Source: Phytopythium helicoides (taxonomy: Eukaryota; Oomycota; Peronosporomycetes; Pythiales; Pythiaceae). Taken from it: DNA of 64,000 bases. Numbering within the stretch: the first letter of the stretch is position 1; each line of letters starts with the position of its first letter. The notes below the pieces were generated by a model, which saw only the letters and a list, made by a program, of their open reading frames with translations, did no database searches and had not been told where the DNA came from. Positions 7,801 through 32,948 of this stretch are shown here, one piece after another. The DNA lies in NCBI GenBank assembly GCA_024867545.1, contig JANFNE010000042.1:303474-367473 (forward strand). Reading direction: 5' to 3'. The position numbers were made by a program, and so were the translations under genes.

Positions 7801-10211
7801 GAGCTGAAGCGGAAGGTGATTCGTCAGCACTTGCAGCTAGTAACAACAACGAATTGAGTGCATTACCAGCATATCAAGCTGCTTTGGCGTATGCAGGTTT
7901 TATGGAGTCAAAACTTGCAGGATCAACAGAAGCACCCAGTGTTGCGATTGACAGTGAGGCTTTCCACGGAGTTGTTCGTTTGGCAAGTGACCCGAACAGT
8001 GCATTAGGACTGTCAGCCGTAACAAGTACACTCGAAGGCGAAAACACGAGCATGAACGTTGGTCTTCCACCCAGCGTGCTTGAAGTAGCAGACGTCGAAA
8101 ACCCACGTGATGCGTACACGATCGAAGATGCCAAGCGCAAGAGTGAGGCAGATGCTCGTGCGCGGATGGCACTTAGCAAACAAGACCAGACACGGGCGGT
8201 ACTTGCTCAAATGCGGCAGCATTTGAAGCTTCTTCAGGAGCGTGACGCCTCGCTCCCTCCTGAAAGCAGAGTGGAACCGGAAGAGTGGGAAGTTGACCTA
8301 GACTATGGCGAGATAATGGCAGCGCGAGGTGATGCTGCGTGCGAAGAAGTTCGCAAAGAACTTGCCTACGCTGTCGAGAAGGAAGAGCTCTTACTACTCA
8401 AGCTGCGTGAAGCTTTTGTTAGCCAATTGGCTGTAGAGCTCGTCACTGTCCACGCTTTTGCTACCCCACTTAGCGTTCAGGCGTTTCGTACACTGAAAAT
8501 GTCACCCGTACTTCAGAAGCGTCTTGCAGAGATACATGCAGCCGCAAAGAACACAACAACTGCGAGTCACGAAGCTGCTCGGAGTGGAAGCGTGACTAGT
8601 ATGAGTGAGCTTAGTGGCAAGAAACTTTCAAGTGTGACTGTCATGGCACCAGAATCTACTGGGTCATCGTCTCCTGGATCCCAAAAGAAGATGTCTATAT
8701 TGCGGAAGCCGTCAGTGCTCCACATCATGACCGAGAAGGACCTTGCTCTTGACGATGGATTTCCACTAAAAGAAGAAGAGCGCAAGATGCTCGGGCGTTC
8801 AGTAACAATGACAGGAGGGGTGGAGCCTAGTAACAATAACAGCTCTACTGCGCTGGGCACTACCACAGCACCTCCAGGTGCCCCCATTTCACTAGCTCAA
8901 CCTCGCGAGACTTCTAGCGCAACTTCTGGATCTGTGCATGGCTTTGAAGCGCGCAAACGTCTTCGAGCTGAGCGTAAGGCACGTCTGACACAGTGGATGG
9001 CAAGCAAACCTGGAGAAGATGCTGATGATCCTAGAGATCTTGTAGCAATTGCATTTGCTCGACGTAATATGGGTGATTACAAGCTGAAAACCGCAAACGA
9101 TTATGTTGTGCCCGAGGATCAACGTGTCAACGCTGCCAAAAAATTCCGTCAACTAGCGCTGCTGGAAGAGAGTCTATACACTTCCCGATTGCGGTTTAAT
9201 GCCAAAGTGCTGGAGCTCCGAGAGCTCAAGGTGCAGCTAGTTGATGCGCTAGCAAGAGACTATGTGCGGCTCAAAGAGTTGTATGAGTCACTCGGCAAAT
9301 CTCCACCTGCAGTTGCACCAAATCTACTTCGTGTAGACCTTAGTGAGTGGCCCGAGCAGCGTGAGCGCGTCACCGATTCAGACTTGCAGCTGTATCTCCG
9401 CGAGAAAAAAGTGTTGCCGCATAGTGCTGACCAAAATAGTTCGTCTTCAGTAGACGGAACATCTTTGACTGCTAAAGCAAGCAAAAGCAATCTCAACAAC
9501 TCGTCACAAGTGAAATTGCGGCATCTATATCTCCCGCTTACAACAACTGGAACAATACAAGCGGCGATACTAGGTCATACCAAAACGATTTCGCGCAGTG
9601 CGGATGCTGACGACACCGCTGTACGAAAGTACCTCGTAGAACAAGAGATTCGTACGCTTGAGCGTCGCCGAGCAACCGAAGTGGCCGCATTCGATGATGC
9701 TGTAGGACTCTTACGGCGAGAAAAAATGCGCCTTGATGTTGTTTTTAAGACATGCGAACTGCGGCTGTATACTCTACAGAGCGAGCTCGAGCTGCTGGAG
9801 CAGTTTGAAAACAAGGAAAATTTGCTGAGCGCCAAGCTCGACCGTATCAGGTCTGACAAGGCGCAGATTGTGGGTGAGCTAAGCGACGTCCAGGAGCAAA
9901 TGACTGCGAAAAAGAAGGATTTGGAGGAATGGTCGCGCCAGGAGAAAGCAATCCAAGCAGAATTTGTGACGCTTGTCAATGGTGCAAGCGCTGGAGGATC
10001 TGGAGCTTCTCACCCAAGCTTTGCAGCTCTCCAGAAAGTCTTCAAGAGGAAGATTAAGCGTCCGAAAAAGCGCAATACTGGTGGAAACAACAATAAAGAT
10101 GGCAGTGATGGTGGTGGAAACGATTCAGGAGATGGAGGAAAAGGGGCCGAGAATGATCGTGACGACGATGAGGAGGACGACGAAGATGAAGATGAATATG
10201 ACGATGATGAT

Positions 10212-10243
<32 letters not shown>

Positions 10244-11192
10244 AGAGGATACTTGTCCTCCAGGTTGTGACCTTGGACTCTACGAAAAGGTTCTGTCCTT
10301 AAGAGAGAAGCGTGTCGACATCGATGAGGCTATAAGTGATTTAAGTAAGGCACTCGAAGAGCTCAAGAAAAATACCGATCGTCAATCTGCCAAGCAGCGA
10401 CAAGTTGATAAGGAGCTAGCAGCAACTGAATTGGAAACTCAGGTGTTTCAGAGCGAAAAACAGCGCAGATTTAACGAGCTGGATGTGGTTGTCGCGCTCA
10501 GTTCACGCCAGATTAGATGCCTCGTGCAAGGGACAGACTCATGGAGTGCGCCGGAGCAAGCAAATGATTGCCTCGTTTTCTCAACACGAGCGTTCGCGGC
10601 ACTGACAGATCGCATCGAGGGCTTGCAGCGAGAGAATCGCAGTTTGCGACAGCAATTCCGCGACTTGCATCGACAGCAGTCGGTGCTCGCCAAAGAAAAG
10701 CGCGCACAACAAGAGACAATCGCACAAGTCGCGCAGCGCTGCGAACAGCTGCAACTGCTCAAGTTTGGTCGATTGGTCGATTTGGATGTGTTGGACAAGG
10801 CGAGCGACACGGCTGCATTGCGCGAGTTACAGGACAAGGTCCGGTTACGGGAAGTCGAGGCTGAACGTGAGTTGATGGCGAGCAAGCAAACCGAGCACGA
10901 GCTCCAGCGCGAGTTACTGAAAGCTACCGAAGAAAACACAGAGCTGCTTTCCCAAATGGCTGTTCTCAGCTCTCGCCAGCTGGCACTTGAGCGGGAGCTC
11001 AACGACAGTGGTGCAGCCGCAGCTCGTGGGCTCCAGGACGATGCCGCGACGGCGGCAGAACTTGAGCGAGAGATGCGCGAACGCAACAAACTCGTCAAGC
11101 TCGTCAAACTGCAAGCGCGAGAGCTCGAGGCGCTCAAACAGGAGATAGGCTTGCTCCGAGGTAAGGATGGCAAGGTGTACGCCCCACGCTGA
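4887..11192 (+). CDS. CFAP44 (WDR52) axonemal WD40/coiled-coil protein
   Basis: This is an uninterrupted frame of 2101 residues. After an acidic N-terminus, WD40-type repeats occupy roughly residues 60-900. The segments GSGIGSLAVHPSK, SVGAAPDFLLTVWDWK, TSGVGHIRMWKM and TFTGLKLQGDIGKFGK match the order and wording of cilia- and flagella-associated protein 44. The C-terminal half is mostly coiled coil (about 960-1010, 1110-1165, 1440-1740, 1795-2095). Near residue 1800 it contains the family signature CPPGCDLGLYEKVLSLREKR. CFAP44 works with CFAP43 in the tether/tetherhead complex that links the I1/f inner dynein arm to the doublet microtubule, so the organism is expected to make motile flagella (zoospores). 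An Asp/Glu-rich linker at about 1754-1788 follows a Gly/Asn-rich stretch. No intron is needed, and the gene is intact. Confidence 0.93.
10161..10248 (+). repeat. GAY/GAR trinucleotide tract inside CFAP44
   Basis: This near-pure run of GAC, GAT and GAG/GAA codons encodes an acidic linker of about 29 residues, preceded by a Gly/Asn/Asp-rich segment. Length polymorphism is expected because the array is simple, but the reading frame is kept. Confidence 0.85.
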
Positions 11193-11505: not shown

Positions 11506-11831
11506 ATGGAGAAGCGCGGGGAGCGTCGTCGCGGGGCTCGGCGGACGCCAGGGAAGGCTGCAGCGTCCTCTGAGGTCCCGGAGGACGCTGGTGACGCGTC
11601 GAGGACGTCGGAGGACACTTTGGTTCGCCCCAGGAGGACGCCGGAGGACTGCGCGTGGTTCGCGGGCAGCCGAGGCGACTTGGCGTTCGCGCAGTGGATG
11701 CTGGGGCGCTGCAGCGGCGTGGGGGACATGCGGACGCCCGGCTCAGTCGCGACGGTGGAGCGCGTGCACGCGCTGTACGCGGTGCAGAAGCGGCTGCGGC
11801 ACGAGTTGGCCATGTCTTCGTCTGCGGCGAC

Positions 11832-11863
<32 letters not shown>

Positions 11864-14748
11864 AGGACCAAGGCCGAGACGGAGACGCTCAGGATGTAGC
11901 AGCGACGTGGCCGGTGGACGAGATGGTGGAGGAGGTGGCCAAGGCGCTGCGGCCCTCGAGGATGGCGCTGCAGCGCGCCAAGAGGGCGGCGATGAAGGCT
12001 AATGTCAAGTTTGAGGGAGGGCTGGAGAGGCTGGTGGTGGCCGAGGTGATTGAGCACGCCACGGAGCTGCTGCTGAGTCGGTCGGCGGGAGGAAGTGACC
12101 GCCAGCTGCTGGATAAGTGGGTCGCACTGCTTTCGGAAGAGCTGAAGGAAGAGGAGGAGGGAGAGGAGCAGACGGACAAGGATGCCGTGGATGCAGCGGA
12201 GGAAGCCTCAGGGAAGAAGGCCAAGAAGAAGGAGCGCAAAGCCAAGGGAGCCAAGGATGCCGAGAGGTCAGCGTGCGAGCAGACCGCAGCGTTCCTGGCG
12301 TTTGTGTCAGAATTCGACAGCGTCGAACCAGTGTCCACCCCTCTCGACATCCAAGCCGACTCGGCAGCAATAACACAATGGACGCTAGAACTGACAAAAA
12401 TTTACAATGACTCGGGCATCGACCCGGGTGACGAAGCACGACGGATTGAAGTTGCTGGAAAGATCCAAAGTGTTCTCCGCAAATACGTCAGCAAGTGGAG
12501 CCAATGCGAAGTGAAGCCATTCGGTAGTTCTCTTTCCCACTTCGGTTCAAAGAACTCGGACCTAGACATGTGCCTCATTCCCAAGCCAAGCACAGCGGCG
12601 ACGCTGGCGCAGTTGAAGGAAAACTCTCCAGCAGTGAGTTCGAGGCAGATTCGACAGCTCATCAAGGCTGGCCAATCGCCCGAAATCACTGACAACTCAA
12701 ATGGTAGCGCCGATGGAACGACACCAGAACCGGCAATCAGCGTCGAGCAGCTTATGGAATTGTCAGAGCATGCCTCGAAGAGTCTTGAGAAGCTTGTGCA
12801 GACACTCAACAGCATCGATAACGCAGCTCGCAAAGCTAACAAAGGTAATGAATCCAGTGAAAGAAAGGAAAACAAGCAGCAGCGCCAACTAGAGTTTTTT
12901 CTGGAACATTGGCGACTCTTCCACCAAGCCGTCAAGCGCGAGCTGGAGTCACTACTCGCTACGGATGGTAAGAGTGACAGCGTCGCTGCCTTCAAATCAG
13001 CGGCAGCAGAGCGTCAAGCGCGCATCAAGGCTCTAATCGCAGCCAGTCGAAAGCGTGTGGATGACCTGTACCTTCTCCAGGCGATGCTTCAACGAGCTGA
13101 GTGCACCATTCGATTAGTGATTCGCGGGGCGCGCATTCCTATCATCAAATTTGTGCACACACCAACAGGGTTCGAATGTGATTTGTGCTTCGAAAACGTG
13201 CTGGCTACTCGCAACACTTTTCTCCTCCGCGCATATGCTGAGTTTGATGTTCGTACGCGTGTGTTGGGACTTGCAGTGAAACACTGGGCCAAACACCGCG
13301 GGATCAGCGATGCATCCTTGGGGTACTTTAGCTCCTATACGTTTGTGTTGTTGTCAATTTACTTTCTGCAGCAGCCATGGGTTGGTGTTCTGCCAAGTTT
13401 ACAGGACCCGGATCTTTTGAAGCGCGCTAAACAACCCCGAGAAGAAATCAATGGAGTTGACATCTCATTCTGCACCAATCTAGAGTTGGCACGAGCGTAT
13501 CATAAAGAGAAGATTGATTCCAAGTCTTCTTCTTCAACGATGATTAAAGCTAGTCCTGCTGAGCTTCTGGTGGCGTTCTTTCGGTTTTACGCAACTCAAT
13601 TCGATTTTGCGCGTGATGTGGTGACGCCTCGCGACCCATCTGCGATCATGACCAAGGTTGCGAAATGGGGTGTGCGGAAGGCGAAGACATGGCGCTTGAG
13701 TGTTGAGGATCCGTTGGAGACTTCTCGTGATCTTGGGTGTGTGCTTCAGTTCAAGGGCCAAGAGGCAATTTTGCGCGAATTTCGGCGCGCCAATGACCTC
13801 TTGAGCCAAGGTGTAAGCTTCACAAATGTCGTGTGTGAGTCTGCTACTACGACCGCTGGCACAGAGGCAGCAGCAGCTGGCGTTCCCGCAAACAACAGCA
13901 AGCGCAAGAATGGGAAAAATGAGGAGCGCACGTACATGATCACAATCTGGAGCGCCGATCGTGAGCTTACCAAGCCTGGGGTTGTTGCGCTGTTTAACAG
14001 CTTCGAGTCTTCGTTCCGTGTTGGAAAAATTGTGGAATCGCGTGACAAAAGAGGTAGCGGCTCGCGACGCAAGTTCGAGGTAGAACTGCGAACGAAGGCT
14101 CAGCAGTGCCCGCGAGCTCTGAGTCTTAAAACACGTATCGACTGGGATGAATCAGAGACGAAAGGCGGAGAGAGGAAGCGCGTTGCAAGTGGTTCTGTTT
14201 GGATCCACCACACTGCGCTGCACGATAACGCACCGTGTACGAAGTGTCTGTCACCTGCCCACTTGGAGCGAGACTGCAAGGAGGCAGACGGTACAGCTCC
14301 GTCAAGCCGACATGTTCTTCGAGTTTCATTGAGCACGCGCTGGAGCGCATCGAACGCCAATCACCAGCAAAAGGAGCGACGTGATAACAAGAGTCGTCAG
14401 AGTCGCCGAAATCAGCCAGAACAAGAGGAGCAGGAACAACGGAAGGATGATGATGCCGGCCGTAACGAAGATCGAAAGGATTCAAGCAAGCGATCAGAGC
14501 GGCGGCGTCAGAAAGACCCTTCTGAGGGTAGTAATGGCCGGAGCAAAAAGCCTAAAGTGACCAACAGCGAAGCAAACAACGGCAACAAAGGCAGGATTGT
14601 CACTGTCGAAGTAACCAGCGTGACTGAAGACGGGAACGCTGATGCGAGTGGCAAATCTGAAAGCAAAGGACAAAAGAAAAAAGCGCACAAGTGGCAGCAC
14701 AAGCGAAAAACAGCTTCGTCAAACGCGAAGCCACCGGCATCGGCGTGA
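11506..14748 (+). CDS. Noncanonical poly(A) polymerase / terminal uridylyltransferase with zinc knuckle
   Basis: The frame is uninterrupted and 1080 residues long. The nucleotidyltransferase signature is clear: FGSSLSHFG followed by SDLD places the metal-binding aspartates at about D352 and D354. The third carboxylate is D559 in GFECDLCFEN. A PAP/25A-associated region follows, with LAVKHWAKHRGI and YFSSYTFVLLSIYFLQQ. About 200 residues, including a Ser/Lys-rich helical stretch, separate the second and third aspartates, far more than the usual 50 or so. Near residue 911 is a CCHC knuckle (C-x2-C-x4-H-x4-C), as in TUT4/TUT7-type enzymes. The N-terminus has an EQ repeat and acidic or Lys-rich low complexity, and the C-terminus is basic and disordered. 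Expected activity is 3' addition of A or U to RNA; which nucleotide is used cannot be read with confidence. It lies codirectionally behind CFAP44 and converges with the channel gene 208 bp downstream. Confidence 0.87.
11832..11863 (+). repeat. CAGGAG hexamer microsatellite in coding sequence
   Basis: About five tandem copies of CAGGAG encode a Gln-Glu dipeptide run near residue 110-120 of the nucleotidyltransferase. The array is in frame and lies in a disordered N-terminal region. Confidence 0.8.
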
Positions 14749-14956: not shown

Positions 14957-17900
14957 TTAGCCGTCGTTGGTACCACTTAGTGCTAGATGACTTTTGCTCG
15001 CAGATCGACTCAACGCGTTAGATTCATGGCCCTTTCCCTTCAGAGAGTCTTCTGACGTATCTGAACTTCTCACAACATTGAATCCTGCGCTCAGAATTGA
15101 ATGGCGATGTTGGATGTGGCTCTCTCGGCGTGTGATGCCCATACTTGGAGCACCTGCGGCGATGGCACTTGGGCGTCGGCTGCCAACGATGTAGTGTCTT
15201 TCGTCGTCATAGTCACTTGGTCCGAGGCCGAGTCCTGACAGTGGCGAAGATCGATCTGATGATATTTGTGCTGATAGACGCCGAGTTGTAAAATCGACCG
15301 GATGCTTGTCGTCCGTGTCGTCGTCGTCATCTCCATCGTCGCTGTCATGATCATCACTATCATCATGGATCGGGGTCGAGTTATCCTCAGCTGGGGAATT
15401 AGTCGAAATTGGGCTGGCACGTAGGAGTTCATCTGTTGTTTGGAGCCACTGAGATACAGGGGTGGGGTCGTCCTGCAATTCAGCTGTAGGGGAGTTTGCA
15501 TTGCCGTCAGGTACCGCATTTTTAGAATCTTCAGCATCTTTTTTGATACCAACTGACTTCGCTTCCGGTGCAATTGAGGCAGCCAACTGCGCTTTCGTTG
15601 GCGATGTGATAGGCCCAAGTTCTTTTCCAGCCGTAAATGTCCGCACGAGTGGCGGGGAGTGTGCCACCTGAACATTCTCTGCGCCGGTGTTCAAGACAAT
15701 ACTGCTTGATGAAGCACCTGCATCGCTCCCACTGCTGAATCTTGGGGCATCTGTATTTTTGCTATTGGATTCTCTGGCTGCCGCAAAAGTCGACGATGAT
15801 AGAGTTGATACACCACTCGCTGCCAATAACCTTGCTGCGAACAAGTGCAAAAGGCCGTTGGGCACCAGAAGCTGGAGTAGAGGTCGGAAGGAGGCGTAGA
15901 CATCTTCTGGTGACTGGAATGAAAAGCGCGCGTCGATGGTAACCCGGATTTTGCGATTAGCACGCCGAACTGCTGCAGCGTCGGGCGATGCTCCAGAAGG
16001 AGCAGCTCCTCCATCACCGCTCACCGCACTCGCAGCTGATGTGACTGTCGCGTCTGGCGTGCAAGCATCATACTTGCGTCGAATTGCATCCAACACTGCT
16101 AGCCCCCACTGGCACTCAAGGGGTACGGGACTGGAATTTGTGTCTGAATTTTTGCGGTGCACACGCTGTTTCATGTGAAACACAGCACTTTCAGCAAACT
16201 CAAACGCAAGACCATAGACGCGATGGCCCTTAAGAACTTGGAGCAGGGCTTCGGCACGAAGAGAGAGCATATCGCAGGCACGTAGCGTGCGCACAGAGAA
16301 AACGCCAACTGAGTACCCGAGGAGGCCCTTGTCTCCAAAGTAGTCGCCCTTGGAAAATGTCAGGTCGCGGTACAGACCAGGATGGGAGCGTGAAGTAGCG
16401 TGCAGCGCGCCACGCACAACGAAATACATGGCCTTTGCAATGCTGCCTTCAACCAGTACATCCTCTCCTCGTGGGAAACCTTCGAATTTCAGGTTCCGAG
16501 CAATCGACTGAGTAAGATCGTACACAGATCCAGGTGGCTCGGCGCGGCAGATTGGACGAAAGACATCGTCAACAAAGGCTTGAAGTGGTGAGTCGGCGAT
16601 ATTCAGTACGGACTCCGTGCGAATGCTTGATGGGACTTCTTCGAGCAGAGATTGATAATCAACCCCACGATGTGACGACCAGAGAGACGACATGAACGCT
16701 TGAATGCGTGTTTTGAGGTTGCCAGTGATCTTCCAGCGGGATACATACAGCTCGACAGCAATGAAATTTCTCCGGTACTCTACTTCATCGTAAATGAACG
16801 AGATGAAGAGGTTTGCAATTTCGCCGATCATGAACGCCATGATTAGCAACCCGACAAAGCAAGTGACGATTGCAAAGATGAAGTGTGTGGTCGTATCAGG
16901 TGTAAATGTGCGACCTTTCTTGACAAACGCCGTCATGGCAAAGAAAAGACCCCGGACGACCCGCAAAGGACGTTGATCTGGATCCTCCAGCGATATATCG
17001 GGCCTCCACGCGTCCCACTTGTTGCCGTAGTGATCGCTTATCGCGATAGCGAAGTACGTAGCTGCACCCCAGTAGATTACAATCAGGTAAAGCACGAACG
17101 TTGTTCGTAGGCGATGCATCTCGTTGTACAAGTTGCGGCGGTTGAGCTCGTGCATGTAGTGGAAAAAGTTGCGTAGTTTGACGCATCGGTTGAGTCGAAA
17201 CACTGGATGATTCGAGAATGAGCTAACCACGTAGTCTACAGGCAAGGCTGCGAGCACATCCCAGATAATGCGCTCCTTCTTGTACGCCTGCTGGTGGTTC
17301 ACCTCGTACAGATCCATGGACTCTTGACTGCCTTGTAGGCGCCAGTTGACCCAAATATCTGCAATAAAGACAAACTCACAAACTGTTTCTAGCTCACGAA
17401 GCATGACAGCTGATCCTTGCACGCGTTCAAGCGTGTCGAACGAGACACGATACGGTACAAGGATGGACATGAGCACAGTTGCACCGGCAACTAAGCGGAG
17501 CCAGCCCAAGTGTAGCCCACTTTGAGCTGCTGCTCCCTCGTAAAACAGTTTTATAATGCTCCCAGGTAAACGTAAGAGGCGACGTGGTGCGTAACGCGAT
17601 AGATCATGAGACTGCTGAGCGTGCAAGAACTTCGGAGACAAGCTAGCTTTACGTTTGGCAGATGTTGCTGCCCGCACCCTTCGTACGTACAGCATCTCTT
17701 CCTCTGTACGCTCAGCTGAAAGCTCGTCTTCACCCATCATTTCCATACCTGAAACAATCGAATGCATCTCCTCCTGTGCGATGCGATTGAGCCGATTCTG
17801 CTCTCTCTGCACCTTCATGATTCGCAATACCTTTTGCTTCCAGTCGGGGTACCGATTGAATACCAGCTCGAGTGAGTTGCGCGATAGCCTATACAAAATG

Positions 17901-20900
17901 CACGACGAGCGCGCGACGACGTATGCGTTTCGTGCACTATTGAAAAACAGAGCATTTTCACCAAAGTAGCTCCCAGTTCCGATCGAAGTTAAATGCGTGA
18001 GCGAGTTGAGATCGATACCGCCAGTTGCGTGATGGTGAGGTCGCGGGTGAATTTTATTAGGTGAAGGAGCTATCTGAGGACGCCGAGGCGGATTTGGTTG
18101 TAGCTCAGGAGATGACGCGTTGTACTGTGCCTGCTGCTCGGCAACCGCGCGGCGACTCGCACCCTTCGCTAGTCGACTGCGGTAGCTGCCATTTGGTGTG
18201 TCATCAGGCGTGTGCTGGGACGCATTCGGCTCAATAATCGATGACTCGCGCGCAAATTCATCTCGTGGCAGCAATGCATCAAGCATCCCTGTGAAAACAA
18301 AGTACATGTCGCTTCCAACCTCACCAAATTTGTACACAAACTCGTCTTTGACTACCATGACTTGGCTGAACTGTGAAACAAGCATGCGTGTAACGCTGCC
18401 CTCCATATCAGCTAGAAATGACACTTTCATTATCATTGGCTGCAAGTGGACCATGCGAATATCCGTGAGAAGCGAAGGTGGTAAACACTGCTCGAGTAAA
18501 TGCTCCTGTGTAATCGAGTGAAAGCGCTTAAAGAAGAAATATGCCTTGAACCGCTCTTCCACTGACGGTGGGAGATTAAAGTGTGCCAATAAATGACGGA
18601 GAGAGCTTAGTTTGGCGTAGAATTCACGGTTCTCGGCGTCCATGAGGTCTATGATGTCTGAAAAGTTACCAATCACATACGCAAATAGGAAAAATCCAAA
18701 CGTCATGGTGCCGATACTGCATAAACATTCTGTCACTTCTTTCGGTTTTTCACCTTGTGTTGACGCTGACATGATGCCAAAAGACCAGAACAGGGAAGCA
18801 AAGTACTGCAGTCCCGTTGTACCGCTCAGCAGTGAAACTGGGGGCAGCCACTCGTGAAGTTCTGATTCTCCACCACTGTGACCTGAGGAGATAGATGCAG
18901 CCATGTGCTGGTATGATGCGCGGTTGGTAAAGTCAAACCAAATGCATGCAAACACATGTGATAGGAGAAAAGTGTAGTAAATGAGCTTGAACACTCGGAG
19001 CTCAAGGGTAAACTTCGCGTATTTGTTTTCGAGGGCTGCAAGCTGGGTTGGAACTTTGACTAATCGTACAAGTTTGTTCAAATTGAGCATTTCAAGAATT
19101 GCCATTTTGGACTTGTTATGGAAAATGGACGGTGACGTTGCCGCCATCCCCCAGTATATTGAATACAGTGGGAGTAGTGCCAGTACGTCGACAACAAATT
19201 CAGAGGATCGCAGATACTTTTGTTTAATAAGGGTCACGTCCATCACTTTGTTGCCAAATTCATAGTATCCCAAATGACACCGAACAAACATATCCAGGAG
19301 GAAGCTGATCTCAAGTGCCACGAGAATGCTCTCCGCCCACGCAAAACCGTCGGCTTCAACTCGAAAGGAAACTCGAAGAAGAATTGAAACCCACTGCACG
19401 GTCATTGCCACAAAGACCCACGTTTCCCACACGATAATGTACGTCGAGTCTGGGTCAAACACGATCTCATCGATTATGGCGAAAGCTCCGCAACAAAAAG
19501 TGGATTCTGTCTCGGACGAATTGGCCATAACTGAGTCCAAGGTAGCAAGAGCCGATGCCTTTGCAAGTTTCGGATCCAAGAATCGCTTCTCTAGATCGAA
19601 GAGTGCGTCTGCAAATGACGGGAATGTGATCTGCATAGCTCGTAGGTGCTCGCGAGCTGCGAATAACAAGACACAACCACTAATGGCTGTGGATCGCTCT
19701 CGATAGCTTGCTGAGGTATCGTTGAGTCGCAAGGCCGCAGTACCAAAGAAGCCGCCTGTTGGAATGCTCCGCGGCTGGCTTCCTGATATAATCAGCCCAA
19801 CCTCACCTTCTAGAAGAAAGAATACGCCCCCTGCATAGTCTCCTTGTCGATAGATAGTTTCTCCCTGTCCATAAAGGATAAACTTGATGTTGTCCACAAA
19901 TACTTGCTCGAGGTCAGACAGAACGGGTCGCACGCCAACCATAAGTGCAAGGGTTTGCAGTGCAGGTTTACAGATGCTGCACATTATTTCGTGCTTAATT
20001 GTCTCTGGTAGCTCTTCTAGCAGCGAACTGATGAAAGCTCCTCGATGAGCAGACCACCAGTAGTCCAGAAAGGCGTTGACACGCTTATGGATGACCAGTG
20101 GTGCGTTCTGTCGACGAAGAAACATTTGGATGCGCGAGCAAGTGGAGAAGAACTCTTTCTGATCAAGAGCCGAAGCAGTGAACCGTTTCTGGACTATATC
20201 AACTACAACAGCAGTAATGAAGAACCCGCTGAGCATAAATATAAGTGCTGCACCATACTGGTTGTCGCTGGCAGGCTCAATCGTCAGGCCCAATGCTGTT
20301 AATACGTTGCATGCATAATAAAGCGAGCGGAAGTACTGTTTTGCAACTATCGCATCAATTTCTGGTGATTCAGCCTCATAAGTGACGTTGTAGATGTTCA
20401 TATAATGCGTTGCATTAATCTTGTACAAGTAAAGGTCGTTTGATGGAATCCACGACTTCGAGGCAGAGCTGAATCCTTCGAAAAAGGTGACACTAAAGTA
20501 TAAGCATGCAATTACATGGTACAGCATGAAAAATATCACGCTCAATAGCATCAAGCGCTGCTTGCTAGTCAACTGAATCTGAGCGTCGACCTCTCGGAAG
20601 TGGCTGTGTAGCTTCCAGATGCGTAGTAGCCGTGGAATCCGAGCTACCTCTCTTGGCGAAATCTGCGGAATAAGTCTGTACGGCAGCAGCAAAATGAAGT
20701 CGATCCAGAAATGCTTTTTGAAGTATCGGCGGGCAGTCTTCGTTGTGTCTGTGATTTTCTCCAGGTTGTCCATGTAGGACAAGTTCAAGTTGATGTAAAG
20801 ATCGGCCCACAGCACAAGGTCCATGATGGTATTGACCACCTCAATGGACCAGAGGTGGTGTTCAAGGAGCGGAAAACATAGGAAGAGCGGAATGACGATC

Positions 20901-23059
20901 CAGTTATACATCCAGTTGATCTGAAGAATAAAGATCCACCACATACGATGCTTCGTTTCGAAATCAATCGCATTTCGCCGCAGCAATAGCGTCCACAGAG
21001 GCGCCTCGTTGGTCATACGACTGATGTGTAGTGCTAATGATGCAGCATTGTGTCCAGTTGCCCACGCAACAGAGCTGTTGCGTATACGCACCAAGGAGCC
21101 CTCTAGAGCATCCTTGTATGACGAGGAGCGCGTCAAAGCAGCGTCAGTCCTTACTGCTTTCGTCCGATTCTCAACTGCTTTTTTTGATTCGCCTGGTGAT
21201 GCCTCCACTTTTTGTTTCTCCTGCGCCTTCTTTGCAACGTCAACAATACTAAGGGCTGGTTTTGGCGATCCATTCACCGGTGCAGAGGGAGAATCAAGCG
21301 CAATGGTGCTGATTGAGCTTAAACGAGCTGAAGTTACCGCGGACGAGACTGCAGTAAGAAAGGCAGGCGTGACTTTAGGCTTCTCCTTTATGATGTGCTT
21401 GCGAATGAGCGTAGAAATGGTTTTCTTTGTTTCGAGCGTTCCAATCCCGCCTTGGCCGTTGGGACTCATGAATGAAAAGCGTGCATTGCGGCGAAACATT
21501 ACCGCTGCCATCTCCTCAACTTTTTGTGGGATGAGCGTTGCGTACTGTGGATAGCCTTCAAGCATTCGCTCCATATGTAGCCGGGCAAGTTTATACAACG
21601 TGCAATAAGTTGTAGTTATAATGGTTGCAAAGCGTGGTCGGTTCAGAAATATGCTCATTTCTCCAAATGCACTCCCCTTGCGCACTTCGCGCACCTTGAT
21701 GCCTTCGACCACAACGTGAAGTACGCCTGAGTTTACCAAGTACATTGCGTCACCTAGGTCTCCTGCGTTGAATAACACAAAGTTGGCTGGCAGCGAGATC
21801 ATCTCAAGTAGACTAGTAATGGCAATAATGAACTGCTCGTTGCAGTCCTCGAAGTACGGAATCTTGGCAACCATGTCCTTGACAAGAGTCACCCGAACAT
21901 CTTTGGAAATGGATGCACATAACAGGCGCATGACTTCGCGTTCATTCGACTCGGTATCCGTATAATACCGCTTGAGATAGCCGACAGCTTGCTCCTTCAG
22001 CTCGTCCGGCACGTGGTGGAACGATAGAATGTGCTTAAATTGGTTGATACGGGCGTCAGCTGTCTCGGAGTGGGAGCTCTCGCACTTTGAGATCATGAAA
22101 AACGTTGCACATAGGTACGTAAAGAGCGAAAAACCGCAAAGCCCAACTGTTAGAGCGAACCAAAACTCGATGAGAGCGTGCGGAAGCTCTCCTTCAAACA
22201 GCCCTGTCAGCATCCCGAATGCCCAGAACAGCGACATGAGGTACTTTGTGAGAGTTGACTGTTCATGCTCTGGCTTGTGCGGCAGCCAGTGGTTGGTTCC
22301 ATGCTCGTCGTACCCAAACCAGAAGCGCGCGCACGCTACAAAATGAGATAGCAGCAGAATCACTAGAAGCACTTTGAACATCTTGAGCAGCTCGAAATGT
22401 CGTGCGTAAAGATCGTCGAGTAGTGAGATATACTTTGGCACTCGCCATACCCGAACAAACTTGTGAAGCTCAAGATACACGGGTGAGATTGCACTCGTGA
22501 GTGGTAGTAATGAGAGTGGTGCCAGCGCGACTATATCCAGTACAAAGCGAACCGATTTGAGATACTTGATGCGCGATTTTTTGGCGTCTCGAGTTACATT
22601 TCCGTCTTCATAGTAGCCCGTGTTGAGCTCTACATAGATGTCGATAAGAAAGAAGACCTCGCACACATATATTACAGCAAGGAGGGGAGATAGCCAGTGC
22701 TTGGTGTCGGACTCGAATGTGACAAGGTAGGGTAACACAGCGATCTCGTACAATAGACAGGTAAGCAGTAGTTGGTGCCATACATGGATAGCGCGTGAGT
22801 TGGGGTCGAACGCGCTTCGAACTTCGAAAAGCAATACCTCGATCGAGTTCGAGCGAACTCGTAGGGTTTCTCGCATACTGCTGCGAAAGTGTGATCTGGA
22901 AGGAAGCTGTGTGCTCGCTCGAATTCTGTGAAGCGAGGCTCGCATGGAGTGCCCGCGAGCCAATACTGGTGGTGGGCCCGCAGCTCCATTCTGTGCTGGT
23001 ATTGTAGGCGCTACCGGCGCGGGCTCGGCTTCAATCCGTGTCATCGCGTTGTTCTGCAA
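14957..23059 (-). CDS. Four-module cyclic-nucleotide-gated-like ion channel
   Basis: One intron-free frame encodes 2700 residues. It holds four repeats of a six-helix channel unit plus a cyclic-nucleotide-binding-like domain (CNBD). Helices and CNBD lie at about 91-325/400-515, 705-960/1055-1155, 1205-1470/1550-1745 and 1850-2095/2185-2285. S4-like segments carry spaced R/K (FVRVWRVPKY near 201; IPRLLRIWKL near 808; LVRLVKVPTQ near 1330; LNRCVKLRNF near 1956). Pore loops differ: GLFEGELP (286-293), ALGLTIEP (922-929), ASTQGEKP (1432-1439) and VKKGRTFTP (2046-2054). None is the K+ signature GYG. CNBD1 and CNBD3 keep FGE plus an Arg-x-Ala-type site; CNBD2 (FFGT) and CNBD4 (FGD, no Arg) do not. 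CNBD3 has an insert of about 95 residues. The C-terminal 400 residues are disordered, with an acidic run. One chain could form a whole pore, unlike ordinary tetrameric CNG/HCN channels. It converges with the nucleotidyltransferase gene. Confidence 0.92.
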   Translation of the reverse strand: MQNNAMTRIEAEPAPVAPTIPAQNGAAGPPPVLARGHSMRASLHRIRASTQLPSRSHFRSSMRETLRVRSNSIEVLLFEVRSAFDPNSRAIHVWHQLLLTCLLYEIAVLPYLVTFESDTKHWLSPLLAVIYVCEVFFLIDIYVELNTGYYEDGNVTRDAKKSRIKYLKSVRFVLDIVALAPLSLLPLTSAISPVYLELHKFVRVWRVPKYISLLDDLYARHFELLKMFKVLLVILLLSHFVACARFWFGYDEHGTNHWLPHKPEHEQSTLTKYLMSLFWAFGMLTGLFEGELPHALIEFWFALTVGLCGFSLFTYLCATFFMISKCESSHSETADARINQFKHILSFHHVPDELKEQAVGYLKRYYTDTESNEREVMRLLCASISKDVRVTLVKDMVAKIPYFEDCNEQFIIAITSLLEMISLPANFVLFNAGDLGDAMYLVNSGVLHVVVEGIKVREVRKGSAFGEMSIFLNRPRFATIITTTYCTLYKLARLHMERMLEGYPQYATLIPQKVEEMAAVMFRRNARFSFMSPNGQGGIGTLETKKTISTLIRKHIIKEKPKVTPAFLTAVSSAVTSARLSSISTIALDSPSAPVNGSPKPALSIVDVAKKAQEKQKVEASPGESKKAVENRTKAVRTDAALTRSSSYKDALEGSLVRIRNSSVAWATGHNAASLALHISRMTNEAPLWTLLLRRNAIDFETKHRMWWIFILQINWMYNWIVIPLFLCFPLLEHHLWSIEVVNTIMDLVLWADLYINLNLSYMDNLEKITDTTKTARRYFKKHFWIDFILLLPYRLIPQISPREVARIPRLLRIWKLHSHFREVDAQIQLTSKQRLMLLSVIFFMLYHVIACLYFSVTFFEGFSSASKSWIPSNDLYLYKINATHYMNIYNVTYEAESPEIDAIVAKQYFRSLYYACNVLTALGLTIEPASDNQYGAALIFMLSGFFITAVVVDIVQKRFTASALDQKEFFSTCSRIQMFLRRQNAPLVIHKRVNAFLDYWWSAHRGAFISSLLEELPETIKHEIMCSICKPALQTLALMVGVRPVLSDLEQVFVDNIKFILYGQGETIYRQGDYAGGVFFLLEGEVGLIISGSQPRSIPTGGFFGTAALRLNDTSASYRERSTAISGCVLLFAAREHLRAMQITFPSFADALFDLEKRFLDPKLAKASALATLDSVMANSSETESTFCCGAFAIIDEIVFDPDSTYIIVWETWVFVAMTVQWVSILLRVSFRVEADGFAWAESILVALEISFLLDMFVRCHLGYYEFGNKVMDVTLIKQKYLRSSEFVVDVLALLPLYSIYWGMAATSPSIFHNKSKMAILEMLNLNKLVRLVKVPTQLAALENKYAKFTLELRVFKLIYYTFLLSHVFACIWFDFTNRASYQHMAASISSGHSGGESELHEWLPPVSLLSGTTGLQYFASLFWSFGIMSASTQGEKPKEVTECLCSIGTMTFGFFLFAYVIGNFSDIIDLMDAENREFYAKLSSLRHLLAHFNLPPSVEERFKAYFFFKRFHSITQEHLLEQCLPPSLLTDIRMVHLQPMIMKVSFLADMEGSVTRMLVSQFSQVMVVKDEFVYKFGEVGSDMYFVFTGMLDALLPRDEFARESSIIEPNASQHTPDDTPNGSYRSRLAKGASRRAVAEQQAQYNASSPELQPNPPRRPQIAPSPNKIHPRPHHHATGGIDLNSLTHLTSIGTGSYFGENALFFNSARNAYVVARSSCILYRLSRNSLELVFNRYPDWKQKVLRIMKVQREQNRLNRIAQEEMHSIVSGMEMMGEDELSAERTEEEMLYVRRVRAATSAKRKASLSPKFLHAQQSHDLSRYAPRRLLRLPGSIIKLFYEGAAAQSGLHLGWLRLVAGATVLMSILVPYRVSFDTLERVQGSAVMLRELETVCEFVFIADIWVNWRLQGSQESMDLYEVNHQQAYKKERIIWDVLAALPVDYVVSSFSNHPVFRLNRCVKLRNFFHYMHELNRRNLYNEMHRLRTTFVLYLIVIYWGAATYFAIAISDHYGNKWDAWRPDISLEDPDQRPLRVVRGLFFAMTAFVKKGRTFTPDTTTHFIFAIVTCFVGLLIMAFMIGEIANLFISFIYDEVEYRRNFIAVELYVSRWKITGNLKTRIQAFMSSLWSSHRGVDYQSLLEEVPSSIRTESVLNIADSPLQAFVDDVFRPICRAEPPGSVYDLTQSIARNLKFEGFPRGEDVLVEGSIAKAMYFVVRGALHATSRSHPGLYRDLTFSKGDYFGDKGLLGYSVGVFSVRTLRACDMLSLRAEALLQVLKGHRVYGLAFEFAESAVFHMKQRVHRKNSDTNSSPVPLECQWGLAVLDAIRRKYDACTPDATVTSAASAVSGDGGAAPSGASPDAAAVRRANRKIRVTIDARFSFQSPEDVYASFRPLLQLLVPNGLLHLFAARLLAASGVSTLSSSTFAAARESNSKNTDAPRFSSGSDAGASSSSIVLNTGAENVQVAHSPPLVRTFTAGKELGPITSPTKAQLAASIAPEAKSVGIKKDAEDSKNAVPDGNANSPTAELQDDPTPVSQWLQTTDELLRASPISTNSPAEDNSTPIHDDSDDHDSDDGDDDDDTDDKHPVDFTTRRLSAQISSDRSSPLSGLGLGPSDYDDERHYIVGSRRPSAIAAGAPSMGITRRESHIQHRHSILSAGFNVVRSSDTSEDSLKGKGHESNALSRSASKSHLALSGTNDG

Positions 23060-23709: not shown

Positions 23710-25680
23710 ATGGAGCCTTCAGGGCGGGACGCGTCGCCGCCGCGCAAGCGCGCGCGCACGTCGGACGACTCGGCCGAGTCCTCGGCGTCGTCTCCGCCGA
23801 CTGCGCAGACGCAGGCGCCCGCGCTGCGGCTTCCGCGGCTCTCGGCGCTTTCTGGGGGCGTCGGTATCGCTCCTTTCCTCGTCATGTCGCTGCGCGGCCG
23901 GACGGACGGCGCGCACGCTCTGGACGCGTCGGCGGGGGCTGCTGGGGCGCTGGAGGCGGCTGTGACGAGCGATGAGCCCATGCTGTTGGCGGGGGACGCG
24001 AGCGCGGCGCTGCAGGCGGAGGAGTCGACCACGGACGACGAGGAGCTGCAGCAGCTGTCGATGGTGCGGCTGGACGCCGGCGAGGCCGTGCACGAGGGCG
24101 CGGAGCTCAACTACGACGACGTCAAGCTGGTCGTGTTCAGCGCCGCCAAGGACCCGCGGCTGTCGACGCTGCAGAAGAGCATGAGGATGATCAAGATGGC
24201 CGCCAACGGGGCCGAGATGATGCAGAGGCTGGTCAATGATGAAGACGAGACGGGGCTCACGCTGCTCATGATCGGCGTCAAGAACAACCTGCTGCCGTTC
24301 TGCGCGTTCCTGCTGGACGAGGGCGCTGATGTCAACTACAACACGGTGCGTGGTAGTTCATCGATGATTGGGAAGGACCAAGGACGTTATCTAACGGTAT
24401 CGTATGCGGTGGTATGACAGGAAAAGCGCACATACGCGTTGCTGCTGGCGGCGCAGAAGGGGTGGGAGGACATGACCAAGTTTTTGCTGGACCGCGGCGC
24501 TAATGAAGAGTCCAAGAACATGTCGCTCATTCCTGCGGCGCACTTTGGGCACCTGCCGGTTGTCATGCTATTGCTCGCGTGTGGCGCCGACCTCAACTAC
24601 GCCAACAAGAAGGGCACGACGCCGCTCATGCGTGCGGCACAGGAGGGTCGTGACAACGTCGTCAAGTATTTGATTCACCAGGGCGTCGACACGTGCGCTG
24701 CCAATGTGCGTTGTCTGAATTTGATTCCCATGATTTTGAGGAGCAGATTCTAATGGCAGTTGGGATACTTTATGCAGAACGAAGGCATGACGGCCCTGAT
24801 GTTGGCAGCTCAGCGCGGACACGCTCACATTGCCACGACACTGATCGATTCGGGCTCGAACGTCAATAAGCAGACGCGGCAGGGAAGCACGGCACTTTTA
24901 CTCGCTGCAAAGCGTGGACACACGGCTGCCGTCGAGGCGCTGATGACTGCAGGTGCTGACATTTTCCTGAAGGACGATCGCGACAAGACTGCAGCGGAGA
25001 CTGCGCAGCGAAGAGGGCATGTGGATTTGTGCCTCAAGATCACAGTGCAGCACCAGTTGCGCCTCATGCGTGAATTTTTACGCCGCGAGCGGTGCTATAC
25101 CATGATGCACCTGTCAACTTTGTACGTGCTGGGACGTGCAGAGGTGATCCCAGCCTTCAAGAATCCCCAGCGGCAAAAGTACAACGAACTCATGGATCGA
25201 ACAATGCGGCTGCCAAAGCCGCTAGTGCAGAATATCGCAAAGTTTCTCCCGCTGTGCCGAATGTGGGACCGCCAGTTGCGCTACCTGATCTACGAGACAG
25301 CATTGCACTCGAACCGTGTAGTGCAGCAGGGCATCCGCATCATCGACGAGATCCTGCTCAGCTTCAGCCTCGACATGCGGCCCTCGCTAAAGCGCATCAA
25401 GGAGGAGTGTGGCGGTCCGTTGCACGTGTCTGGGCAGCTTGCACTGCTTCGCGACAGCTCGGAGTACCGTAGCCTCTTCACGACTGAGAGTCGGCTACCG
25501 ATGCCTCCCATGATGCTGTTGCAGTTGCGGCGCATGGCGGACATCCAAGGAGCCATCGCCACGTACTCTGCAGGTGGTGCGATCCAGTTTGGGGTCGAGG
25601 TAGCGCAGGATGTGGTCGCTCTGCTAACAGACCTGCTGAACTGGGACACCGCGCGGAAACGCACCGAGCTTCTGCACTGA
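23710..25680 (+). CDS. Ankyrin-repeat protein
   Basis: Exons 23710-24345, 24421-24705 and 24778-25680 encode 607 residues. The introns are 75 and 72 nt with GTGCGT/GTGCGTT donors and CAG acceptors, both phase 0. The second contains CTAATG, a plausible branch site. After a Ser/Ala-rich, acidic N-terminus (1-150), six or so ankyrin repeats span about 175-410. Examples are TLLMIGVKNNLLPFCAFLL, ALLLAAQKGWEDMTKFLL, TPLMRAAQEGRDNVVKYL and TALLLAAKRGHTAAVEALM. The last 200 residues are helical without a family I can name. Ankyrin repeats usually mediate protein binding, so no catalytic role is implied. A second copy lacking the first 195 codons lies at 30403-31788 as part of a tandem duplication. 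Confidence 0.88.
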
Positions 25681-26021
25681 TTGCAGCCACCAGTTTTGAC
25701 GTTGCGTTCGCAATAGTTATTTACACGGGCGAGGTCGGGCGAACGAATGCACGCGCCGAGCGAACCGGGTAGACTAGTCTCATCCAACAATCTAATGATC
25801 TATAGTGGTTATCGTGCAGTCTGCGGCGTTTGTTTCGTGTCGCGATGATTCAGCGGTGTATGCTCAATCACAAACGTGTGGTCTTTGAAGCATCCAGCGC
25901 TGAATGCAAGCGAATAGGTACAAGGAAAGTTCTGTCTGAGGTATTCTCCGAATTCACTTTCTCCGCATGTATGACAATGCATGTATCATTTCGTATTTTG
26001 CCATTCAAGAGAGCTACAACG
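25681..26021. other. Flank between ankyrin gene and small ORF
   Basis: The first 150 bp are nearly identical to the equivalent position in unit B, and the rest diverges more. The frame of the small ORF is open upstream to 25830 in unit A, but in unit B the equivalent frame is broken just before the conserved ATG. I therefore treat the segment as non-coding leader. Confidence 0.4.
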
Positions 26022-26501
26022 ATGACGGGATCATCAGGGCCATTCCATGAGTGTCCAATCCAGCGAGTCGAAGGAAGCATATCGAACTGGTTTACGTGGA
26101 ACCTGAAATTTTGGTGCCGTTTTGTCGAAACGAAAATGTATTACTGGACGTTCGTTCGAGTTTTTGACTCCAGCCAAGAAAAAGAATGCCAAGAGAGCGA
26201 CCACAAAATGCTGCTGGTCTTTATCCGCGAGCTGTACTCCAAAAAGCTTGGAGAGGTCATCGACTCTTGGCACTCGAAAGAATACATACCACTCGAGTAT
26301 CGCCACGCAAAGGTGAAGCTCGGCGACGTATTCGATTTTTACACTTCCAGCGATGGGACTTTGAAAGTCCCCGAATGGCGGAACTTTAGTCACGCAGTGG
26401 ACGAGTATTTGGAGAACGACCCTCGTGTCAAGTCTCACCCCAGCCGTGTGCGCCAGTTCATTGAAGAGAACGGCATCGAGTCGCTAGGAGAGATGAAATA
26501 G
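26022..26501 (+). CDS. Small unknown protein, unit A copy
   Basis: The frame encodes 159 residues from an ATG conserved with the unit B paralogue at 32156; an in-frame upstream start exists at 25830. The product is charged and aromatic-rich (WFTWNLKFWCRF, YYWTFVRV, HAVDEYLEN, HPSRVRQFIEENG), without signal peptide, membrane helix or a domain I recognise. The two copies differ by about 17 residues over the first 148, and the C-terminal tails are rewritten, while the neighbouring kinases differ by 3 residues in 634. Conservation of an open frame in both copies suggests a real protein, but no function can be assigned. Confidence 0.55.
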   Translation: MTGSSGPFHECPIQRVEGSISNWFTWNLKFWCRFVETKMYYWTFVRVFDSSQEKECQESDHKMLLVFIRELYSKKLGEVIDSWHSKEYIPLEYRHAKVKLGDVFDFYTSSDGTLKVPEWRNFSHAVDEYLENDPRVKSHPSRVRQFIEENGIESLGEMK

Positions 26502-26812
26502 GACCGTGTGTCCGGGCCATAAGAGACCGTGCGGTTACCTGAAGAAGATAGAGTCTTCGAAAGCGGTAAAGCCGGTTACTCGGGGGTCTGGCTCAACCTG
26601 TCTTACTATGCTTACAGCACGTGCTGTGCATCCAGACGAGCTTCGAGCTTTGGGGTGACAACGAGCCAATACATGGAGACCACGTCAAAAAGGATACTGA
26701 CGGGTCTCTTATTCTCAATGTATTGCGGATGCATGAGTTGATGAATGCTCTTGACAGTTTAAACCAAGCATACATGTATCAACGCACCAACCCTTCGTTT
26801 GGTAATCAGAAA
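26502..26812. other. Region between small ORF and receptor kinase 3' end
   Basis: This is virtually identical to 32638-32948 in unit B. A 66-codon plus-strand frame (26621-26821) is conserved, but identity here is at the DNA level, so frame conservation is not informative. The region probably holds the 3' ends of the converging small ORF and kinase. Confidence 0.4.
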
Positions 26813-28717
26813 CTATGCTAAAGAAGAGTACTCAAGACTTCGCATGACTTTCTGCAGCTTGTACAGCACTTCTGGAGCCGCAGGGCGATCCCTCGGGTCG
26901 ATCGCCACGCACGCCAAACCCAAGTCTACCATCTCTGGTAACGCATTGTCACTAAATGCCACCCGAAGAGTTCCCATCGCCACCATTTGAAGGATTGCCG
27001 CATCCGGCAACTTTCGACCAGAATCACTCTTCTCTTTCGCGTGTGAGTACGGCAGCACATGGACATCCAGCTCACTAAGCATGACACCGAACGAGAAAAT
27101 GTCGGCCTTGTCGTTGTACTTCCCGCCTATCATGACTTCGGGTGCCATCCACAGCGACGTTCCCACCCCTGCAGTCATTGTGCGATCCTCCCACTCACGA
27201 GATACACCAAAATCTGTAAGTTTGGCGTTCATTTCGTTGTCCAATAGAACATTCTTCGACTTGAGGTCACGGTGAAGCACTGGTTGCTTCAAAGAGTGCA
27301 GATATGTCAATGCATGTGCGATGTGGTAAGCAATGTTGACCTTGGTGGTGTCGAAACCCTTTGGATGTGAGTTCTCCTCAAAGTTTGCTAGTAGTGTACG
27401 TACGTCACCGCCAGGCATGTACTCTGACAAAACACACAAGTCATTGAGCGAGTTCCACGCCAAACCCACAAAATGCACAATTGATGGATGTTCAATGGTC
27501 GCCATCAACTTCGCCTCAGTCAGGAACGCGTTCACGTGCTTGAGATTTTTACGGGTCTCGGGAACCAGCATCTTGATGGCAACAACTTCTCCAATATAGG
27601 TGCCTTTGTAAACCTCTCCGTAGGCACCTCGGCTGAGTAGCGTCTCAATAACGACTTTCTCTCGCGGGACTCGGGATCCAATGATTGTTTCATCTTCCCA
27701 CGGTGAGATATTTCCAGCAATAAGTACACCATGGGAAATGTTAGAAGCAATGCTTGACCCGAGCGTTGGTCGTGCATCGTTCTCACTCTCGAGTAGCGCT
27801 TCTTGGTAGGATTTTTTGGTGTACTTGCGTTTTCGGTAGCAGCATGCGAATGTGCCAATGAAAAGTACCATAACACATACCGAGATTATTATCGCGGCAA
27901 TCGATCCAGTACTGAGTCCTGAACTCAAACCAGCATCGGTAGAAGTTGTGTTTACAGACTCTTGCCACGACGTCACAGAAGATAGCCTCTCGGGTTCACA
28001 CCACAACGCATTTCCCTTGCTGATTTCGCTGGCTGAAATCGTACGGCATGGAACAACGAACATATTTTCCACCAGACATGAGTTGTCGCCCTCACCGAGG
28101 TACTCGAGCGCGGTGTTTGCAAACTGGGTAATTAAGTAAACCATATTGGTTTGGTTGCCCGACTCGGATAAGTCATGTGCGTAAATCTCGGGGTCAAAGC
28201 CCCACGAAAGCGTTTCGGACCCCTTGGAGTACATGGTGATGTTGTTCCACTCAGGCATGTCTAGAGTGTTGTTGTCATCGATAATAGCACAGATAGCCTG
28301 CTTAACGACGGCAGCCGGGTCGCACGACTGGGTGGCGAAGGTCTGGACTCCATCCTTGCATGCCTCTTCAACTTCACACTGTGACGAGTCCAAGGCTTGT
28401 GCCGTTACAAAAATGTCGTTCATAGAGAGCGTGCACTGCGTGTAGATCTGCGTATACTTGTTCGTTCCTCCGAGGCGCATGAGCCCCAAGTCCCACAACA
28501 CAGCCCGCTGCAAACTGATGGATAAGTTCGCGAATGCTTCGTCACTCTGCACACGGTTGTAAAGCGTTGGATACTCGGCGATGGTTGGCAGCGGAGTGGG
28601 TAGACTGTCCAGGTTGTCTATCCGGACCTCACTCAGCTGCTTGGGAATGTCGATGGCAAGTATCTGAGCAGACAAGAGAGCGCTGGCAAGCGCAACGACG
28701 ATAAAAAACGACGGCAT
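26813..28717 (-). CDS. TKL-type transmembrane receptor kinase, unit A copy
   Basis: An intron-free frame encodes 634 residues. A signal peptide (about 1-22) precedes an ectodomain of some 245 residues with several Cys and N-glycosylation motifs. A membrane helix at about 271-294 is followed by a basic stop-transfer (RKRKYTKK). The kinase domain (about 353-628) is complete: glycine loop SRGAYGEV (362-369), K382 in VVAIKML, E402, HRDLKSKN (482-489), DFG (502-504), APE (525-527) and a terminal DPRDRP arginine site. The HRDLKSKN loop and domain order fit the tyrosine-kinase-like receptor kinases common in oomycetes. The ligand is unknown, since the ectodomain has no recognised fold. It differs from the unit B paralogue at three residues (M496, S631, A634). 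Confidence 0.92.
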   Translation of the reverse strand: MPSFFIVVALASALLSAQILAIDIPKQLSEVRIDNLDSLPTPLPTIAEYPTLYNRVQSDEAFANLSISLQRAVLWDLGLMRLGGTNKYTQIYTQCTLSMNDIFVTAQALDSSQCEVEEACKDGVQTFATQSCDPAAVVKQAICAIIDDNNTLDMPEWNNITMYSKGSETLSWGFDPEIYAHDLSESGNQTNMVYLITQFANTALEYLGEGDNSCLVENMFVVPCRTISASEISKGNALWCEPERLSSVTSWQESVNTTSTDAGLSSGLSTGSIAAIIISVCVMVLFIGTFACCYRKRKYTKKSYQEALLESENDARPTLGSSIASNISHGVLIAGNISPWEDETIIGSRVPREKVVIETLLSRGAYGEVYKGTYIGEVVAIKMLVPETRKNLKHVNAFLTEAKLMATIEHPSIVHFVGLAWNSLNDLCVLSEYMPGGDVRTLLANFEENSHPKGFDTTKVNIAYHIAHALTYLHSLKQPVLHRDLKSKNVLLDNEMNAKLTDFGVSREWEDRTMTAGVGTSLWMAPEVMIGGKYNDKADIFSFGVMLSELDVHVLPYSHAKEKSDSGRKLPDAAILQMVAMGTLRVAFSDNALPEMVDLGLACVAIDPRDRPAAPEVLYKLQKVMRSLEYSSLA

Positions 28718-31788: not shown

Positions 31789-32074
31789 TTGCAGCCACCA
31801 GTTTTGACGTTGCGTTCGCAATAGTTATTTACACGGGCGAGGTCGGGCGAACGAATGCACGCGCCGAGCGAACCGGGTAGACTAGTCTCATCCAACAATC
31901 TAATGATCTATAGTGGTTATCGTGCAGTCTGCGGCATTTGTTTCGTGTCGCGATGATTCAGCGGTGTATGCTCAATCACAAACGTGTAGTCTTTGAAGCA
32001 TCCAGCGCTGAATGCAAGCGAATAGGTACAAGAAAAGTTCTGTCTGAGATTTTCTCCGAATTTACTTTCTCAGC

Positions 32075-32110
32075 AAGTATGACAAGACAGGTAAGTATGA
32101 CAAGACAGGT
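32075..32110 (+). repeat. 18-bp perfect tandem duplication
   Basis: An 18-bp unit (AAGTATGACAAGACAGGT) is present twice head-to-tail here and is absent as a repeat in unit A. It contributes to the 28-bp length difference between the units and to loss of the upstream frame of the small ORF. Confidence 0.9.
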
Positions 32111-32155
32111 ATCATTTCCTATTTTTCCATTCAAAAGATCAAAAGAACGTCAACG

Positions 32156-32629: not shown

Positions 32630-32948
32630 TGCAGTAGGGTCGTGTGTCCGGGCCATAAGAGACCGTGCGGTTACCTGAAGAAGATAGAGTCTTCGAAAGC
32701 GGTAAAGCCGGTTACTCGGGGGTCTGGCTCAACCTGTCTTACTATGCTTACAGCACGTGCTGTGCATCCAGACGAGCTTCGAGCTTTGGGGTGACAACGA
32801 GCCAATACATGGAGACCACGTCAAAAAGGATACTGACGGGTCTCTTATTCTCAATGTATTGCGGATGCATGAGTTGATGAATGCTCTTGACAGTTTAAAC
32901 CAAGCATACATGTATCAACGCACCAACCCTTCGTTTGGTAATCAGAAA

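Follow-up and report, generated by a model that had tools for sequence, protein, structure and literature searches.

A stretch of 64,000 nucleotides from the oomycete Phytopythium helicoides (assembly GCA_024867545.1, contig JANFNE010000042.1, positions 303,474 to 367,473 of the forward strand; hereafter the window) was analysed. Positions 14957..23059 of the minus strand carry one open reading frame (ORF) of 2700 codons for a putative ion channel, in which four modules of six transmembrane segments (6TM), each followed by a cyclic nucleotide-binding domain (CNBD), lie in a single chain; this protein and its relatives are called type A. The frame is free of stops throughout, as an earlier note on this DNA had stated, and at the base composition of the ORF a stop-free run of this length would arise by chance with a probability of ∼10^-57. 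Pfam analysis gave four Ion_trans and four cNMP_binding domains, the protein scoring 147.9 bits for either family, in agreement with the four six-helix units with CNBD folds proposed earlier, and beyond these nothing above the cut-offs. The listed start codon, TTG (residue 1), is a tool convention. The first ATG is found at residue 6 (23042..23044, minus strand) and is the likely start by comparison with the relatives P0001 and P0002: because P0002 begins with a similar peptide at this position, a protein of 2695 rather than 2700 amino acids is more likely, judged from the sequence; the gene model of P0001 begins further in.

The modules, all on the minus strand, comprise residues 84–545 (module I, S1–S6 and CNBD; 21425..22810), 690–1180 (II; 19520..20992), 1186–1790 (III, with an insert within the CNBD; 17690..19504) and 1830–2320 (IV; 16100..17572). 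When they were searched separately against solved structures, the top match was CNGA1 or CNGA3 for each, with best E values of 1.9e-35 (I), 1.4e-23 (II), 5.2e-24 (III) and 9e-35 (IV); no Cav, Nav or NALCN channel was found in the best 60 solved matches to the window protein. The earlier description of the modules as resembling cyclic nucleotide-gated (CNG) or HCN channels is thus upheld for a channel with CNBDs and dropped for HCN, the best sequence matches being CNGA. Structure models were built for halves of the chain by using 45 of 124 type A proteins. Modules II and IV, in which a predicted lack of the channel fold would, according to the earlier note, have refuted the proposal, are both predicted to adopt the CNG-channel fold with S5-P-S6 retained; HCN4 and hERG score as high as CNG channels for parts of the predicted modules III and I.

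Relatives were searched with residues 84–2320 of the window protein by a method that depends on shared five-residue words. This gave 168 proteins at E ≤ 0.001, the best 120 of which were listed and used; counts per site given below refer to those of the 120 rows that have a letter at the site. The 120 relatives are 1716–3280 amino acids long and 40–76 % identical over the best local alignment. All organism-named rows among them are oomycetes (Globisporangium, Pythium, Phytophthora, Nothophytophthora and Lagenidium), and no animal or plant protein is found in these best 120 of 168; database names of type A proteins include "Voltage-gated Ion Channel (VIC) Superfamily" and "Cyclic nucleotide-gated olfactory channel". 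With four module profiles made from their alignment, the order 1-2-3-4 was obtained for 118 of the 120, and 2-3-4 for the remaining two (P0092 and P0120). Three proteins from Saprolegniales, P0229 and P0230 (Achlya hypogyna) and P0232 (Aphanomyces invadans), also show the order 1-2-3-4, the own profile scoring best for every module. The four-module chain, which the earlier note had proposed to look for by its length in oomycete and other stramenopile proteins, is present both in these listed oomycete relatives and in Saprolegniales. A fusion artefact was ruled out by the conserved length and module order in the relatives.

The genome from which the window was taken comprises 49 Mb in 100 contigs and has five loci that cover the whole type A chain. 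Two are contained in one frame each (the window locus on contig C38 and one on C81), two extend over several frames, as introns would give (one on C12, one on C67), and a second locus on C12 has stops within some matches. Further type A gene pieces, some with internal stops, were observed at C12:821615-830527 and C12:874898-875536 of this genome (G000), on the same contig as the two longer loci; we read these pieces as products of local duplication and decay.

The four pore loops, again on the minus strand, are FWAFGMLTGLFEGELP (loop I; 22181..22228), YYACNVLTALGLTIEP (II; 20273..20320), FWSFGIMSASTQGEKP (III; 18743..18790) and FFAMTAFVKKGRTFTP (IV; 16898..16945), with the filter letters LFEGE, LGLTIE, STQGE and KKGRTF, respectively. 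Neither a GYG/GFG nor a TIGE filter is present in any of the four loops of the window protein, and when the TIGE motif was tested, only the Glu of module I (E289, aligned to the CNG filter Glu) was found to be retained. Within each module, the pore loop is strongly conserved. Glu or Asp stands at the CNG filter Glu position of loop I in 117/117 rows. Residue 925 of loop II, which takes the corresponding position, is Lys or Arg in 106 of 116 relatives and Leu in four, as in the window protein; E928, just outside the narrow part, is present in 115 of 117. Loop III is variable at the filter Glu position, but two residues further Glu or Asp is found in 116/120. In loop IV, where K2047, K2048 and R2050 were set by the HMMER alignment on T, I and E of the CNGA3 sequence TTIGE, the first filter position is Lys (119/119), the next Lys or Arg (119/119), and two residues on Arg or Lys follows (115/119).

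CNBD coordinates were taken from a genome-wide CNBD scan. The Glu and Arg of the phosphate-binding cassette, in which the Glu is presumed to have its usual role, are retained in CNBD I (21557..21796; Glu467 and Arg476) and CNBD III (Glu1701 and Arg1710). For the latter, the coordinates 17852..17992 are partial and cover the Pfam-matched part downstream of the insert, which interrupts the domain. CNBD II (19634..19873) has Thr in place of the cassette Glu; CNBD IV (16229..16477) has kept the acidic residue without the cassette Arg, the HMMER alignment of module IV to CNGA3 showing a gap at this position. With the window protein included and rows gapped at one or both sites excluded (14, 4, 1 and 0 for CNBDs I to IV), the pair of Glu/Asp and Arg is present in 106/107 (I), 0/117 (II), 119/120 (III) and 3/121 (IV) rows, and the same alternation of kept and lost pairs is seen in the Saprolegniales proteins. 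The four CNBD-like domains of the earlier note accordingly stand as folds, while the usual phosphate-binding residues are restricted to I and III. CNBDs I and III are likely to be the cyclic-nucleotide sensors; CNBDs II and IV, in which one cassette residue or the other is lost, would probably transmit or stabilise only. Should the modules be arranged around the pore in chain order, the two sites that seem to be kept, CNBDs I and III, would lie diagonally opposite each other.

The modules are related to each other in the same alternating manner. Profile–profile scores were 485 for I–III and 302 for II–IV, the other four pairs scoring 139–252. A tree of 57 modules, which takes in Saprolegniales, type B (see below), two-module channels and KCNH, gave ultrafast bootstrap support of 100 for I+III and 99 for II+IV (100 and 97 in an earlier tree of 54 modules); Saprolegniales and the other lineages occur together in all four module clades. 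The pairings (I,II)(III,IV) and (I,IV)(II,III) were rejected in the approximately unbiased (AU) test (p 0.0005 and 9e-5), for which constrained trees were made by IQ-TREE fast search. A single clade for all type A modules was not rejected (AU p 0.50), and the sister groups of I+III and of II+IV are weakly supported. Two rounds of duplication would account for this arrangement, the second copying the I–II pair to III–IV; from the pairing and from clades that span both lineages, it is most likely that a two-module unit was doubled before Saprolegniales split from the Pythium/Phytophthora line, a course of events also reported for the CNGK repeats (PMC7576140).

We consider it fairly probable that the window protein is a fixed-order pseudo-tetramer of four joined 6TM-CNBD modules, with two ligand-competent, diagonally placed CNBDs and a pore that is not of the K+ type. 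The four modules in one frame are observed; that one chain makes one pore, and thus one pseudo-tetrameric channel, is what we infer from them. The fixed subunit order and stoichiometry suggested earlier gain from the conserved identity of each module and would hold provided that the folded chain forms a single pore. Ligand at CNBDs I and III would then move the gating ring and open the S6 gate, by analogy with CNG channels, and the acids in loops I and III, set against the bases in loops II and IV, would form a ring of alternating charge in most members of the Pythium/Phytophthora type. Since a K+ filter is absent and acidic and basic loops alternate, the pore most likely conducts cations with weak selectivity. 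In a natural CNG-type channel of fixed order, the kept and lost ligand sites as well as the odd filter loop could be tested by point mutations in a single chain. From the published expression of this gene class, the channel probably works in the sporangium and the zoospore in cyclic-nucleotide signalling, the zoospore role being the most likely one if the sperm channel CNGK is taken as a model.

Several observations weigh against this interpretation. GYG/GFG-like letters occur in loop I of 2/118 rows (0/115 in loop II, 0/121 in III, 0/120 in IV) and TIGE-like letters in loop II of 2/115 rows, with zero in the other loops. The Leu at residue 925 makes the alternating ring weaker in the window protein itself. 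In the three proteins from Saprolegniales, loop IV is without the Lys-Lys pair and a Lys is present in loop I instead; the pattern of charges thus varies within the family. For loop III, the register of the alignment is ambiguous, HMMER placing its GE on the CNG GE with a two-residue gap, and the model of CNBD I has low confidence. Seven single-module segments of the same genome have unusual filters, too; odd filters are therefore not peculiar to four-module chains. With regard to the signalling role, levels of cAMP and cGMP were unchanged during zoosporogenesis of Phytophthora infestans, according to a study cited in PMC5322657.

A stronger version of the proposal, in which an alternating-charge filter ring that needs an ordered chain evolved in oomycetes, together with gating by two diagonal nucleotide sites, apart from both CNGK and Nav/NALCN, is put forward only tentatively. 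If it is true, such a channel would embody a principle of permeation and gating that is impossible in homotetrameric CNG channels.

Among the alternatives, a non-conducting central pore plugged by the charged loops, with the chain acting by way of its voltage sensors or serving as a scaffold that senses cyclic nucleotides, appears unlikely. Neither the lack of any canonical filter in the window protein nor the Lys found without exception at the first position of loop IV would be out of place in such a protein, and HCNL1, a proton channel that contains a CNBD, is described as permeating through its voltage sensor (PMC11700363); a dead pore, however, would not need loops conserved module by module, and S5-P-S6 is kept in the models of modules II and IV.

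Common ancestry with the CNGK family of animals and choanoflagellates, followed by drift of the filter, would explain the shared architecture and the 1-3/2-4 pairing described for CNGK (PMC7576140). We regard it as improbable, for the GYG or GFG of CNGK (PMC4749565; compared by published description) is found in none of the four window loops, and no CNGK was listed among the named rows of three protein searches (window protein, best 120 of 168; parts of loci L009 and L026), all of which need shared five-residue words. An anion pore is less credible again: Lys and Arg would outnumber acids at the narrowest part by virtue of the Lys-Lys-x-Arg of loop IV and the Lys/Arg of loop II in most relatives, but the acids of loops I and III, with E928 of loop II just outside the narrow part, would bring the net charge of the ring close to zero, the solved structures nearest to the modules are those of cation channels, and the Saprolegniales proteins are without Lys-Lys. 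That neighbouring one-module genes have been read as one frame can practically be discounted, as single CNBD-channel-module ORFs do occur in this genome but the 2700 codons are stop-free and nearly all listed relatives (118/120) have the four modules in order.

A second, divergent four-module family, type B, is represented in the same genome by L009 (G000 C47:147000-156900), a frame of 3070 residues with four 6TM-CNBD modules, whose filters are K+-like but asymmetric (LLGYSD, GVGYGD, LVGSYD and TVFYGD). A search with its residues 850–1100 gave 65 proteins (P0121–P0185); all named rows are oomycetes, Albugo included. By the type A profiles, which were not made for type B, four modules were counted in 51 of the 65, three in 11, and two, six and eight in one each. 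The protein with eight modules, a Phytophthora citrophthora entry of 5352 amino acids (P0121), probably represents two fused genes. The type B loci L014 and L015 occupy two frames each. A sister relation between type A and type B modules of the same number was rejected (AU p ∼1e-39). In addition to the two-module channels already published, two kinds of four-module CNBD channel thus appear to exist in oomycetes, and type A, taken together with CNGK and type B, suggests that the joining of four CNBD-channel modules occurred more than once. Single-module CNBD channel ORFs were also noted in the genome (L016–L019 and L028); their filters are non-canonical, GQGN and GHVD being examples. No usable match was obtained when the single-module loci were searched for filters by letter pattern.

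The channel gene is convergent with an ORF for a 1080-residue MTPAP/TUTase-like nucleotidyltransferase (11506-14748, plus strand). Further away, positions 4887-11192 (plus strand) hold a 2101-residue ORF in which beta-propellers of the EML type are combined with a Cfap43 coiled coil. This CFAP43-like gene ends ∼3.8 kb past the 3′ end of the channel gene; CFAP43 is a flagellar protein, and its vicinity is only a hint at a zoospore role. On the other side, a tandem duplication (24294-34853; spacing 6108–6136 bases; three 300-base pieces 93–99 % identical) contains two copies of a 634-residue protein kinase ORF (26813-28717 and 32949-34853). The window also contains another tandem channel, encoded by a 1085-residue ORF at 45149-48406 (minus strand) with two Ion_trans domains and no CNBD match.

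Four linked six-helix domains and an asymmetric filter, with Lys in one domain of Nav, are shared by type A with Cav, Nav and NALCN channels, which differ in having no CNBDs where type A has four. NALCN has its filter Lys in one domain as well. The closest solved relatives by sequence of all four modules of the window protein, CNGA and CNGB, agree with them in 6TM, C-linker and CNBD and in the Glu of loop I, but consist of one module per separate subunit with a TIGE filter, in contrast to four modules per frame. In the same group of organisms, tandem CNBD channels with two repeats were reported in 2020 (PMC7576140); in its accessible parts, this paper names four-repeat CNBD channels solely from metazoans and choanoflagellates. 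The two-module example in the genome of P. helicoides, L026, differs from type A by its two repeats and its SVGYGD and TVGFGD filters, and its modules form a clade of their own with P0202 (support 91 in the 57-module tree).

Among the matches listed from titles and abstract openings, with most subscription papers outside the search, no four-repeat CNBD channel was reported for oomycetes. Ten voltage-gated channels are counted in zoospore proteomics of Phytophthora parasitica (PMC12223298) and many CNGA1 and HCN homologs in a 2016 review of oomycete calcium (PMC4820453), and four-module CNBD chains are unmentioned in the accessible parts of both.

The closest architectural precedent is CNGK (also tetraKCNG), with four 6TM-CNBD repeats in one chain, described from sea urchin and fish sperm and from choanoflagellates (PMC4749565, PMC7576140; see also PMC6259924); on this point the earlier note, which named voltage-gated Na+/Ca2+ channels lacking CNBDs as the main known case of four-module chains, must be corrected. 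Repeats 1-3 and 2-4 of CNGK pair as those of type A do (PMC7576140). The two part company in the pore, where CNGK has a GYG or GFG K+ filter (PMC4749565) and the window protein has none, and in ligand binding: sea urchin CNGK is described as gated by one cGMP through its third CNBD, not all of its CNBDs being thought functional, whereas type A keeps the binding residues in CNBDs I and III. What appears to be new here is the presence in oomycetes of four-module CNBD channels with an unusual pore, the architecture of four CNBDs in one chain being already known from CNGK.
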